From Sporosarcina sp. HYO08 (GTDB lineage Bacteria; Bacillota; Bacilli; Bacillales_A; Planococcaceae): a stretch of DNA of 64,000 nucleotides. The first letter of the stretch is position 1; each line of letters starts with the position of its first letter. Positions 22,096-25,386 of the stretch are shown here, one piece after another. The translations under genes were made by a program, and so were the position numbers. The notes under the pieces are model-generated. The model was not told where the DNA came from. It saw only the letters and a list, made by a program, of their open reading frames with translations, and ran no database searches. The stretch lies in assembly GCF_001563475.1 (NCBI RefSeq), contig NZ_LPUT01000027.1, positions 310,001 to 374,000 of the forward strand, in the 5' to 3' direction.

Positions 22096-22125
22096 TGTCA
22101 TGAGTTTATTCCTTAAAATATGAAA

Positions 22126-22222
22126 GACACGCCACTTCCCTCCGCAGGTTCAAACCTGTTCAGGTAATAAGGGTATCGGAGTCGCACTCCTCTCTCAGTC
22201 CTTTAAAAGGATTCCCCTAATG
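22126..22222 (-). promoter_or_regulatory. TPP riboswitch aptamer (THI element)
   Basis: On the minus strand the conserved blocks appear in order: TAGGGG, the CTGAGAG box (GGACTGAGAGAGGAG), GATACCC, ACCTGAACAGG, and the closing GCGGAGGGAAGTGG. Together with the terminator downstream this forms a transcription-attenuating TPP riboswitch for the tenI-thiO-thiS-thiG-thiF operon. Confidence 0.95.
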
Positions 22223-22335
22223 GTCAGTTCTATGAAGTTATCATTTCATGGACTAGTGTAGCATATGGACGTGATAAATGGAAGTACTTGTCGGAATAAT
22301 TAAAATTGAGTGTGAAAAACCGTCATTGGGAAAGC

Positions 22336-23034
22336 TCAAACTAATAAAAGTTCATCTAAGTCCAAAACCTCGATCTCGCGTTTCCCGCGTTGCCGAATCC
22401 AGCCAGCTTCTTCAAAGTCCGTAAGCTTCCGGCTGACCGTTTCGGGCGTCGTACCAAGATGCGAGGCGATGTCTTTTCGACTCATTGGTAATTGAATGAT
22501 GTTGCTTTTTTGCTCTTCCACCAGATCTGCGATATACATCGCAACCCTTGCGTCTGTCGTTTCCATGGCAATGCGGGCTGCTTGTGTTTCGGTCTTCGCT
22601 AGTCGTGCAGAGAATTCCGAGAGTACTTTTAACGAAATCGCTGGGTATTTGAGTAAAAATGCTTGGAAGTTTTCTCGCCCCATGACGCATAATTCTACAG
22701 GCCCTAACGCTTCTGCATAAGCATTATGAACCGATTCACTAAACAGCGATAGTTCACCGGTGAAATCGCCAGGTTTTAGTATTCGCACGAGCTGTTCTTT
22801 GCCATTGTCAGATAATCGATAAATTTTCACCCGTCCTTTATGGACGATATAAAGACCTTCTGATCGATCACCTGCGTGGTAAATCGTTTGACCCCGCAAG
22901 TGTGTAACAGATGTCGTTTCCTTTACGATTTCGTTCATTTCCGAAGGTGTTAAATGATTAAAAATCGGTACAATGGAGATGCATAACTTCTGCATCTCCA
23001 AGCCGTGATCCGAATGGTGATTACATCCTGTCAT
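22336..23034 (-). CDS. Crp/Fnr-family transcriptional regulator (FLP/FNR type)
   Basis: The 232-residue regulator has an N-terminal Cys/His-rich stretch (TGCNHHSDHGLEMQKLC), a cyclic-nucleotide-binding-like fold (GQTIYHAGDRSEGLYIVHKG, PGDFTGELSLF) and a C-terminal helix-turn-helix with MSRKDIASHLGTTPETVSRKL. The recognition helix reads E-T-V-S-R, the same E-x-x-S-R pattern by which E. coli FNR reads TTGAT-N4-ATCAA. ATG 23034 is preferred to GTG 23046 since GAGGTG lies between them. It is 14 bp after the P-type ATPase gene and most likely co-transcribed with it. The N-terminal cysteines could sense redox or metal; no four-Cys Fe-S pattern as in FNR is clear. Confidence 0.9.
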   Translation of the reverse strand: MTGCNHHSDHGLEMQKLCISIVPIFNHLTPSEMNEIVKETTSVTHLRGQTIYHAGDRSEGLYIVHKGRVKIYRLSDNGKEQLVRILKPGDFTGELSLFSESVHNAYAEALGPVELCVMGRENFQAFLLKYPAISLKVLSEFSARLAKTETQAARIAMETTDARVAMYIADLVEEQKSNIIQLPMSRKDIASHLGTTPETVSRKLTDFEEAGWIRQRGKREIEVLDLDELLLV

Positions 23035-23047
23035 TGATTGATTCACC

Positions 23048-24934
23048 TCACTCTATTAATGGTTCTGGAACATGTCGACTTACTCGTTTCTTTTTTCCAT
23101 TATACCGAATTAATCGGACGGCGTTTACAATAACGGCTAGTACGCTTAATTCATGAATAAGCATGCCGGACGCGAGGAATACTTTTCCGAGTAAGACGCC
23201 TGCAAGAAGTAAGACAACTGTTCCAACTGCGATGAAAGTGTTTTGTTTCATGTTGCGAACGGTTGCTTTCGAGAGGGAATAGGCATGTGCGAATTGATCC
23301 AATCGATCAGCCATGAGGACAATATCAGCGGTTTCCATTGAAATGTCCGTTCCGCCTTCACCCATCGCAAGACCAATATCAGCTGTTGCGATTGCTGGTG
23401 CATCATTAATGCCATCGCCCGCCATTGCAACATGGCGACCTTTGTTTTTCAGTTTTTGTACCATTGCTACTTTGTCTTCTGGAAGCAGCTCCGCATGCAC
23501 TTCGTCGAGTCCTAATTGGGCTCCGACAAGTTCTGCCGTATGGCGGTTATCACCTGTCAGCATAATGATTTGTTTGATGCCATTTGTGCGCAGTTGCTGA
23601 AGTGCTTCTTCTGCTTCAGGACGGATTTTGTCAGCGATTGAAAAGATACCCGCGATCACACCGTCAATGCTTGCGAAGATCGCTGTGTTGCCGGTTTTTT
23701 CACGTTGTACCGCATAGTCTTCTGCAACATCATCAATAATGATTCCTTCAGAAGCCATTAATTTACGGTTACCGATGACAAGTTGTTTGCCTTCAATGCG
23801 AGCACGGATCCCGTTTCCTTTTATTACCTCGGCGTCTTCAGGCTCATTCATGAGCTCGATGTTGCGGTTTTTCGCTTCTTTGACAATCGTTTGGCCAAGA
23901 TGGTGTTCAGAAATCATTTCAGCTTCTGCAACGATGCGAAGCAAGTCTTCTTCATTTCCCGTGAACGCGTGGATATCCGTTACTTCTGGGCGTCCGCGTG
24001 TTAACGTGCCTGTTTTATCAAAAACAACCGTGTCGATTTTTGCAAGTTTTTCCATAATGTCGCCGCCCTTAATAAGGACGCCATTTCTTGCGCCATTTCC
24101 GATACCGGCAACGATGGAGACGGGTGCCGAAATGACAAGTGCGCCGGGACATGCGATGACGAGGAATGTGAGTGTCATTTCGATATTGCGTGTAAAGATA
24201 TAGACAAGTATGGATAAGATAACGATGGAAGGGGTGTAAATATTCGCGAATCGATCTAAAAACTTCTGTGTTTTCGATTGTGATTCTTGCGCTTCTTCAA
24301 CGAGTTCGATAATGCGTGCGAATGTCGTATCGTCGCCGACACGTTCCGCAATGATTTCGATAAATCCGTTATCCACGATCGTTCCGCTAAATACACGGTC
24401 GTCAATTGTTTTGGAAGCGGGAACGGATTCGCCGGTAATGGCAGCTTCATTCAACGTGGCAGTACCTGTGATAATTGAGCCATCTACTGCAACTTTCTCA
24501 CCGGAACGGATGATGACACGGTCACCGACTTCTACATCGTCGACGGAAACGGTCATCGTTGTGCCGTCACGGACGACAGTCGCTTCTAACGGTGCCAGAT
24601 CCACTAATGCTTTTAAGGAAGAACGGGTTTTTTCCAATGTACGTGCTTCCAGATACGCACCGAATAAAAATAGAAAAGTAACAGCGGCAGATTCGACATA
24701 TTCCCCGATGAACAATGCACCCACAACGGCGATCGTGACAAGAAGCTCGATGCTGAATGCTTTCATTCGCAGTGCTTTGAATGCTTTGATAGTGATCGGA
24801 ATGCCAGCAATAATTGTTGCTAGGATTAGCAATAGCTGTCTCCATTCATGGAGGCCGATGATGTGAAGCCCGATAGCTACGGCAAGCAAAATGCCAGTGA
24901 CAGCTGTAATTTGAGATGTTCTTTTGGCATTCAT
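23048..24934 (-). CDS. P1B-type heavy-metal ATPase with CPG motif, no HMA domain
   Basis: This is a metal efflux pump of 628 residues. It has the actuator TGES (AAITGESVPASK), the phosphorylation motif DKTGTLTRG, the nucleotide-binding HLGQTIV (HP-like) and the hinge MLTGDNRHTAEL plus MAGDGINDAPA. The metal motif in the key TM helix reads A-C-P-G-A-L, whereas Zn/Cd/Cu pumps normally have CPC; the second cysteine is replaced by glycine. There is no N-terminal HMA domain: the protein begins directly with TM helices. A separate HMA protein is encoded 158 bp upstream. Metal specificity (Zn, Cd, Co or Cu) cannot be assigned. Confidence 0.93.
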   Translation of the reverse strand: MNAKRTSQITAVTGILLAVAIGLHIIGLHEWRQLLLILATIIAGIPITIKAFKALRMKAFSIELLVTIAVVGALFIGEYVESAAVTFLFLFGAYLEARTLEKTRSSLKALVDLAPLEATVVRDGTTMTVSVDDVEVGDRVIIRSGEKVAVDGSIITGTATLNEAAITGESVPASKTIDDRVFSGTIVDNGFIEIIAERVGDDTTFARIIELVEEAQESQSKTQKFLDRFANIYTPSIVILSILVYIFTRNIEMTLTFLVIACPGALVISAPVSIVAGIGNGARNGVLIKGGDIMEKLAKIDTVVFDKTGTLTRGRPEVTDIHAFTGNEEDLLRIVAEAEMISEHHLGQTIVKEAKNRNIELMNEPEDAEVIKGNGIRARIEGKQLVIGNRKLMASEGIIIDDVAEDYAVQREKTGNTAIFASIDGVIAGIFSIADKIRPEAEEALQQLRTNGIKQIIMLTGDNRHTAELVGAQLGLDEVHAELLPEDKVAMVQKLKNKGRHVAMAGDGINDAPAIATADIGLAMGEGGTDISMETADIVLMADRLDQFAHAYSLSKATVRNMKQNTFIAVGTVVLLLAGVLLGKVFLASGMLIHELSVLAVIVNAVRLIRYNGKKKRVSRHVPEPLIE

Positions 24935-25010
24935 ACCAATCTCTCCTTTAGTTTTTAAATTTTGTACCTTCTATCTATCTCTAGCTTAAAGTGTTTCGGT
25001 AAAAGAAACC

Positions 25011-25024
25011 TTGATGTCCATCAA
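25011..25024 (-). promoter_or_regulatory. FNR-type box upstream of the metal ATPase
   Basis: TTGATGTCCATCAA is a perfect TTGAT-N4-ATCAA dyad, identical to the FNR consensus half-sites. It lies 77 bp before the ATPase start. A weak -10 (TAAGCT, 24988-24983) would put the dyad near -41.5. Confidence 0.8.
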
Positions 25025-25053
25025 GTCGTTGGGGAAAATTCCCTTCATTCCAA

Positions 25054-25085
25054 TAAAAAAGGAAACGGAGGTTCAGCCCGTTTCC
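25054..25085 (-). terminator. Intrinsic terminator after the HMA gene
   Basis: On the minus strand GGAAACGG and CCGTTTCC form a perfect 8-bp stem followed by TTTTTT. It separates the HMA gene from the ATPase gene, so the latter needs its own promoter. Confidence 0.85.
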
Positions 25086-25091
25086 TTCAGC

Positions 25092-25313
25092 TTATGAAAC
25101 TTTTTGCGATAATACAGGATAACCTAGTTTAACGATCGTATTTTGAAGTTCATCCGCCTGAATGGTTTCTGCATCGAACATAACACGCGCTTTGCTTGAG
25201 TTGAATAGCACTTTCGCTTCTTGGACCCCGTTCAATTTTGATAAAGTACTTTCAATTTTCTTAATGCAAGATGGACAGCTAAGCGGTTCAAGTGTAAAGA
25301 CAGCTTTTTTCAT
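25092..25313 (-). CDS. Stand-alone HMA metallochaperone domain protein
   Basis: The 73-residue protein is one ferredoxin-like heavy-metal-associated domain with the metal-binding C-P-S-C at residues 13-16 (EPLSCPSCIKKIES) and the typical GVQEAKVLFNSSKARVMFD. Such proteins deliver Cu+ or Zn2+ to P1B ATPases. Here the neighbouring pump has no HMA domain of its own, so this protein probably replaces it. The ATG follows a purine-rich AAAGGGAGGAAAAC. An FNR-like dyad lies 60 bp upstream. Confidence 0.9.
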   Translation of the reverse strand: MKKAVFTLEPLSCPSCIKKIESTLSKLNGVQEAKVLFNSSKARVMFDAETIQADELQNTIVKLGYPVLSQKVS

Positions 25314-25372
25314 TTTGTTTTCCTCCCTTTGTTCTTCTGACTTAAGAATAAGATATTTTTTATGAATAGACC

Positions 25373-25386
25373 TTGACGCCCGTCAA
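25373..25386 (-). promoter_or_regulatory. FNR-type box upstream of the HMA gene
   Basis: TTGACGCCCGTCAA is a perfect dyad differing from the FNR half-site by one base per arm. TATTCT at 25350-25345 is a -10 candidate whose centre is 32 bp from the dyad centre, the distance expected for an activator bound at -41.5. Confidence 0.72.

Follow-up and report, generated by a model that had tools for sequence, protein, structure and literature searches.

The systems closest to the locus analysed here are the FLP proteins of lactic acid bacteria and streptococci, E. coli FNR, the P1B-4 ATPases and the CopZ-CopA and CadA efflux operons; the locus itself comprises an HMA protein, a P1B-type ATPase and a CRP/FNR regulator, and lies in a 64,000-nucleotide stretch of Sporosarcina sp. 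HYO08 (the window; contig 27 of a 3.05 Mb genome). E. coli FNR acts at class II promoters, a trait shared with the promoters described below, whilst the FLP of L. casei recognises the site CCTGA-N4-TCAGG, which differs from the FNR box found here, and its DNA binding is switched by a reversible disulfide. Two cysteines are frequent in FNR-like proteins of Gram-positive bacteria, and cluster formation in such proteins is controversial, as stated in excerpts of PMC5039431, which also report a changed Dps-like gene in an flpS mutant. FlpA is listed among the metal-homeostasis regulons of Lactobacillales (PMC3616900, in excerpt), and a portion of PMC3547956 states that flpB lacks the proposed L. 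lactis FlpA motif in its upstream region. FLP was looked for in PMC7051946 and was not found there, and no paper on this HMA-ATPase-regulator operon was found in the open-licence literature. Here we compare the locus with its relatives: our analysis of the sequences suggests that, via a precisely spaced box, the regulator very probably activates the gene that encodes it together with those of a metal pump and a small metal carrier.

Results

The locus and its promoters

The locus is read from the minus strand in the order HMA protein, P1B ATPase, CRP/FNR regulator, with the following features:

22336..23046, minus strand: CRP/FNR regulator that fits the FLP type, 236 aa from GTG, with Cys22, Cys120 and the helix E202-T-V-S-R206
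23048..24934, minus strand: P1B-type ATPase with CPG (262-264), HELS (594-597) and DKTGT; no N-terminal HMA domain found
24983..24988, minus strand: -10 TAAGCT (weak) of the ATPase-regulator promoter, 22 nt past the box
25011..25024, minus strand: box TTGATGGACATCAA (plus strand reads TTGATGTCCATCAA), centre at -41.5 of the ATPase-regulator unit
25058..25088, minus strand: terminator-like hairpin between HMA and ATPase
25092..25313, minus strand: HMA protein of 73 aa with CPSC motif (PF00403), probable metallochaperone
25345..25350, minus strand: -10 TATTCT of the HMA promoter, 22 nt past the box
25373..25386, minus strand: box TTGACGGGCGTCAA (plus strand reads TTGACGCCCGTCAA), centre at -41.5 of the HMA gene

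The original prediction, made from the letters of the window alone, had named an FNR-type regulator, a CPG metal ATPase and an HMA protein, and had placed a box at -41.5 before each of two units. All three genes are present, with domain and profile matches in agreement, and so are both boxes, centred as claimed (the position being given relative to the -10 hexamer); the hexamer of the HMA promoter is TATTCT, and that of the ATPase promoter is weak, with only 3/6 matches. The pairing of an E-T-V-S-R recognition helix with a box of the TTGAT-N4-ATCAA type also holds, with the helix at residues 202-206 and the boxes upstream. Since a terminator-like hairpin lies between them, HMA and ATPase are probably two transcription units, which fits the presence of the second box; such hairpins number 6 against 3.9 in shuffled sequences. 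The degenerate box TTGAY-N4-RTCAA has three sites in the window (0.68 expected; three are reached in 4 of 100 shuffles), and this count on its own is weak evidence.

Conservation of box and spacing

In order to compare the locus with its relatives, 82 regions were analysed (the window, L022, L072-L110, L142-L176 and L208-L213; L111 was fetched and left out). A search of 200 family genomes gave 36 regulators with at least 49% identity; these include the window's own copy and one with a stop. Regions were taken around the 35 regulators other than the window's own, as well as around four distant ones; HMA relatives at E 1e-10 were present in 58 of 398 class genomes, of which 35 regions were taken, and six plasmid regions were added. 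Selection of the regions relied on a match to the regulator or to HMA, and related genomes do not count as independent observations. Regulator, HMA protein and CPG ATPase occur together in 56 of the 82 regions, in varying order; apart from the incomplete sets weighed in the Discussion, three regions hold regulator and HMA, one holds HMA alone and three hold none by these tests.

Boxes were counted when lying up to 200 bp upstream and as far as +30. An HMA or CPG-ATPase gene is present in 69 regions, and TTGAY-N4-RTCAA stands upstream in 62 of these 69, compared with 398 of 13,800 random 230-bp windows drawn from the same regions. Counted per gene, the box precedes 58/73 HMA genes and 26/65 ATPase genes: the lower share of the latter would be expected if HMA and ATPase often share an operon, with HMA first. 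The seven unboxed regions include L022, L212 and L213 (titled Castellaniella, Rhizobium and Paracoccus), L082, which has the variant TTGAGGAGCGTCAA, and L148, which has no ATPase nearby; in L152 and L157 the box stands before a Ric or Ric-like gene instead of HMA or ATPase.

The spacing is equally regular: a -10-like hexamer with at least 4/6 matches stands exactly 22 nt downstream of 85 of the 88 boxes, and the best of 39 other offsets has a hexamer at 27/88. A -35 element with at least 4/6 matches is seen in 3 of 87 distinct promoters, the other 84 showing at most 3/6. After thinning of promoters at least 70% alike (n=57) the hexamer is found at 22 nt in 54/57, against 18 at the best of the other offsets listed, and the -35 has at most 3/6 matches in 55/57. 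The promoters thus carry the signature of class II CRP/FNR activation (a site at -41.5, a -10 present, mostly no -35); a class II position without a -35 argues for activation rather than repression. The arrangement is widespread in Bacilli and is for that reason judged to be real. Autoregulation through the boxes, the class II spacing and the metal-related nature of the operon, all part of the original prediction, are backed by this comparison. A search of 41 genus genomes with box-GG-N18-22-TWWNNT returned 36 rows in 27 genomes (6 with the pattern reversed), from which 30 loci with 32 promoters were read: 20 precede HMA or ATPase, five a lipoprotein gene and one a flavodoxin gene, and six were not assigned.

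Several copies are of interest in their own right. L022 (a Castellaniella metagenome-assembled genome), L212 (a Rhizobium plasmid) and L213 (a Paracoccus plasmid) hold HMA and CPG ATPase without the box; these proteobacterial copies are possibly the outcome of transfer, or of a binning error in case of the Castellaniella genome. Decayed copies are found in L079 (Filibacter tadaridae) and L095 (G186), where the ATPase has a large internal deletion or is cut and the boxes remain; L095 also has stops within the HMA and regulator genes. In L078 (G076) HMA is duplicated in tandem, and both copies have a box and a -10 to themselves.

The ATPase and the HMA protein

The ATPase matches TIGR01525 with 583.7 bits, above the cut-off, and together with DKTGT and CPG this marks it as a P1B heavy-metal ATPase, with CPG at the position of CPC in CopA and CadA. 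The HMA protein matches PF00403 (5.5e-15) and scores 51.9 and 50.7 bits against the NCBIfam CopZ profiles, below both cut-offs (95 and 91). In an alignment to 7qbz, which we take to be a P1B-4 ATPase (of the PfeT/CoaT type), CPG lies opposite SPC and HELS opposite HEGS; this motif of the last transmembrane segment is HE[LAVF]S in Bacilli relatives and HEGS in two plasmid copies. By the motif of transmembrane segment 6 the ATPase does not fit the P1B-4 subgroup, CPG being present instead of SPC. The genome encodes three other P1B-like ATPases, read as CadA, CopA and P1B-4 (SPC/HEGS) types from motifs and neighbours. Given these, the CPG ATPase is unlikely to be the housekeeping pump for copper or cadmium, and a housekeeping operon of that kind was set aside. 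CPG ATPases also occur on lactobacillar, Leuconostoc and enterococcal plasmids, and a literature search on the CPG motif in P1B ATPases found nothing. Our first guess at the substrate would be a divalent metal, for example Fe(II) or Zn(II), with Cu(I) possible too: HELS aligns with the HEGS of 7qbz, and the partner genes described below concern iron and the safety of iron-sulfur (Fe-S) centres.

Wider regulon and partner genes

A search of the genome for further boxes, as had been proposed with the original prediction, gave 42 degenerate sites against nine for the reversed pattern, a control that ignores composition; 32 of the 37 sites checked fall inside open reading frames (ORFs). Read in both directions, 26 of 84 readings show at least 3/6 matches at 22 nt. 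Promoters were accepted where the box lies between genes with a gene behind it: HMA, ATPase (3/6) and, beyond these two, a gene for a chemoreceptor joining protoglobin to a methyl-accepting chemotaxis protein. A further box (L063, 3/6), which falls within the ORF that precedes a gene resembling that of ribosomal protein L11, was set aside. Two close relatives of the chemoreceptor (60-62% identity) were found in 60 other genus genomes, each with the box and TATTGT at 22 nt, and both genomes (G567 and G583) also carry the HMA unit; box and 4/6 hexamer at 22 nt are thus present in all three chemoreceptor genes of at least 60% identity, and no box was found at seven chemoreceptor loci of 26-30% identity. 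The regulon had been thought self-contained: this did not survive, because the chemoreceptor gene, elsewhere in the genome, has the same promoter, and in relatives flavodoxin, Ric-like and Dps-like genes come in addition.

Dps-like genes are found in 12 of the 82 regions, Ric or Ric-like genes in eight and flavodoxin genes in three, some of these regions being near relatives. Flavodoxin genes stand behind boxes of their own in L096, L103, L175 and L191. A Ric gene heads the operon in L152, with Ric-like genes in seven further regions (the match of the 99-aa Ric-like protein to TIGR03652, at 1.1e-9, is far under the cut-off), and in L097 the box precedes a cytochrome oxidase subunit II region. 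Increased flavodoxin under mixed metals is ascribed to Fur in an excerpt of PMC9938188. The partner genes point to redox, oxygen and iron stress over simple metal sensing.

As a separate observation, a class II type box stands before a small lipoprotein gene in L177, L178, L182, L189, L194 and L175:3048, with a Big_14 domain in the one protein scanned.

The regulator and its sensing residues

The regulator shows cNMP_binding (2.7e-25) and HTH_Crp_2 (4.7e-21) domains and starts at GTG 23046 or possibly at ATG 23034. Its predicted structure has the CRP/FNR fold with a mean predicted local distance difference test score (pLDDT) of 87.3; GlxR and mycobacterial CRP take the top Foldseek ranks, with A. 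fischeri holo-FNR lower (TM 0.80). Named records with close regulators include Filibacter tadaridae (73%; Caryophanaceae) and Bhargavaea (62%), whilst among named plasmid relatives the best matches come from E. faecalis, E. faecium and L. salivarius (46-48%). For residue counts 68 regulators were aligned, excluding matches below 100 bits and L095 with its internal stop; the four distant regulators (L107-L110) are counted within the 68, as they were within an earlier set of 41. Cys22 and Cys120 are invariant (68/68), as are Glu202 and Arg206 (68/68), and Ser205 is found in 62/68. Cys120 aligns with Cys122 of E. coli FNR and Cys22 sits one column off FNR Cys23; the columns of FNR Cys20, Cys23 and Cys29 show no conserved cysteine among the 68. 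Because the other cluster cysteines of FNR are absent, a standard [4Fe-4S] FNR is ruled out: the label FNR-type holds for the fold, the E-x-x-S-R helix and the box, and fails for FNR in the strict sense. Binding of cyclic AMP relies on Arg-Ser/Thr in a conserved stretch, which here reads GEL.LF.....HD.YAEA and lacks that pair, so that a cyclic AMP receptor was likewise rejected, from this alignment reading only and despite the GlxR and CRP fold ranks. With its CRP/FNR fold and its pair of conserved cysteines, the first N-terminal and the second within the sensor domain, the regulator fits the FLP (FNR-like protein) family, the likeness to FLP/FlpA being drawn by description.

The N-terminal tail ahead of Cys22 contains 4.7% Cys and 14.1% His, compared with 0.6% and 2.6% after it, and at least three such residues are present in 34 of the 68 tails. 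Residues 2-18 of control ORFs from the same regions, a set that includes the regulators themselves, contain 1.9% Cys and 3.5% His, with at least three in 53/456. The suggestion that N-terminal Cys/His residues could form the sensor was therefore apt for the many relatives with a rich tail, and does not extend to all.

These residues lead to the strongest alternative to a redox switch, namely a direct metal sensor in which Cys22, Cys120 and the His and Cys residues of the tail would bind the metal exported by the ATPase and so trigger activation. Enrichment of the tail over both the rest of the protein and the control ORFs speaks for it, as do the metal-related operon and the placing of FlpA amongst metal-homeostasis regulons (PMC3616900, in excerpt). 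We nevertheless consider it unlikely, though deserving of attention, since half of the tails have fewer than three Cys/His residues and some none, tail residues 1-11 have a pLDDT below 50, and the Dps-like, Ric-like, flavodoxin and globin chemoreceptor partners are redox, oxygen or iron genes. Less probable again is an oxygen or nitric oxide sensor, that is an FNR holding an iron-sulfur cluster on unusual ligands: the E-x-x-S-R helix and FNR box, the positions of Cys120 and Cys22 relative to FNR Cys122 and Cys23, the chemoreceptor and Ric-like partners and the non-cysteine-ligand cluster described for L. lactis FlpA (PMC5039431, in excerpt) would all suit it, yet only two cysteines are invariant and the remaining FNR cluster columns hold no conserved cysteine.

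The genome encodes a second CRP/FNR regulator (L002 1465-3130; G000:C1 near 74782), whose recognition helix (TRESVNR) is different and whose neighbour is a gene for cytochrome oxidase subunit II.

Neighbouring genes

The locus is flanked by purC on one side and by a TPP (thiamine pyrophosphate) riboswitch and thi genes on the other. The riboswitch (22120-22228, minus strand; RF00059, 65.3 bits) precedes what we take, from their sequence, to be thi genes, the riboswitch alone having been matched by a model; there is a terminator-like stem at 22096-22067. A PADLOC scan gave weak matches only. The Bacilli operon also occurs with the window neighbours purC and sodC in L018 (NZ_JADHDX010000008.1), titled Arthrobacter beigongshangensis, which is probably a mislabelled or contaminated assembly.

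Discussion

With moderate confidence we favour, on the strength of sequence comparison, an FLP-family, redox-switched class II activator that governs the HMA gene, the CPG ATPase-regulator unit and the chemoreceptor gene, the outcome being removal of metal from the cytosol. The active CRP/FNR dimer would bind TTGAY-N4-RTCAA centred at -41.5 and activate two promoters that lack a -35, that of HMA and that of the CPG ATPase and regulator; activation of the latter would provide positive feedback, and the globin-coupled chemoreceptor gene elsewhere in the genome would be activated as well. The switch is most likely a dithiol/disulfide change at Cys22/Cys120, which the Cys/His-rich tail possibly tunes through metal. 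HMA protein and ATPase would then clear the cytosol of a metal ion, likeliest divalent (Fe(II) or Zn(II), for example), and this output would limit harm from loose metal as oxygen changes; in relatives, Dps-like proteins may store iron, Ric-like proteins repair Fe-S centres and flavodoxin replace ferredoxin. The genes, boxes, spacing, conservation, partner genes and invariant cysteines are established by sequence and comparison; DNA binding, activation, the redox switch, the substrate and the transport direction are inferred.

Several points weigh against this explanation. The genes do not always occur together: in ten of the 82 regions neither HMA nor an intact CPG ATPase lies near the regulator (L079 through decay), and in nine more HMA and ATPase are present without the regulator. 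The -10 of the window's own ATPase promoter is poor (3/6) and is one of the three exceptions among the 88 boxes. The bare pattern with TATAMT at spacing 22 is not selective, with nine sites in 8 of 151 class genomes: by coordinates five of these coincide with units in the retrieved regions, and another (L236) precedes an ATPase-like ORF. With the spacing set to 19-21 as an off-spacing control, 14 sites in 13/151 genomes were obtained, of which, going by coordinates, none matched a known unit. Membership of the chemoreceptor is rare, only two of the 60 other genus genomes encoding a close relative; CPSC of the HMA protein and the Cys of CPG suit Cu(I) or Zn(II) equally with iron; the tail is devoid of Cys/His in some regulators; and a C129S exchange in S. 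suis FlpS left target expression unaltered, according to an excerpt of PMC5039431.

That the boxes arose by chance or serve another regulator, for instance the second CRP/FNR protein, is highly improbable, given their conservation and fixed spacing and the different helix and cytochrome oxidase neighbour of that protein, although degenerate boxes are spread over the genome and mostly inside ORFs, and seven of the nine regions with an HMA/ATPase pair and no regulator nearby have a box.

Extending the redox-switched activator further, we offer as a tentative proposal, more doubtful than credible at this stage, a Bacilli-wide FLP regulon that couples oxygen or thiol state to iron safety: a distinct P1B subclass with CPG and HE.S, loaded by the CPSC HMA carrier, would export Fe(II) or a divalent metal like it, with Dps-like, Ric-like, flavodoxin and, in some genus members, globin aerotaxis receptor genes under one class II box, and the Cys/His tail would read redox and metal together.

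Comparison with known systems

With E. coli FNR the regulator shares the E-x-x-S-R helix, the TTGAT-N4-ATCAA type box and a counterpart of Cys122; it differs in having no conserved Cys20/23/29 and hence no standard [4Fe-4S] site. The ATPase shares HE.S in the last membrane segment with the P1B-4 ATPases (7qbz) and differs in having CPG for SPC, and the same genome holds a separate SPC/HEGS ATPase. CopZ-CopA and CadA efflux operons likewise combine an HMA protein, a P1B ATPase and a regulator, but here a CRP/FNR activator replaces a CsoR, CopY or ArsR-type regulator, CPG replaces CPC, and the HMA protein stays below the CopZ cut-offs. Closest are FLP, FlpA, FlpB and FlpS of lactic acid bacteria and streptococci, also CRP/FNR proteins with two conserved cysteines, the FlpA regulon being filed under metal homeostasis in an excerpt of PMC3616900; here, by comparison, HMA, CPG ATPase and a boxed globin chemoreceptor are present, whereas FlpS of S. 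suis acts on arginine deiminase genes (PMC5039431, in excerpt). The kind of system is thus already known, and the addition seems to consist of the branch in Bacillales, the chemoreceptor and the fixed geometry of the promoters: the conserved geometry and the recurring partner genes provide a testable regulon for two-cysteine FNR-like proteins.

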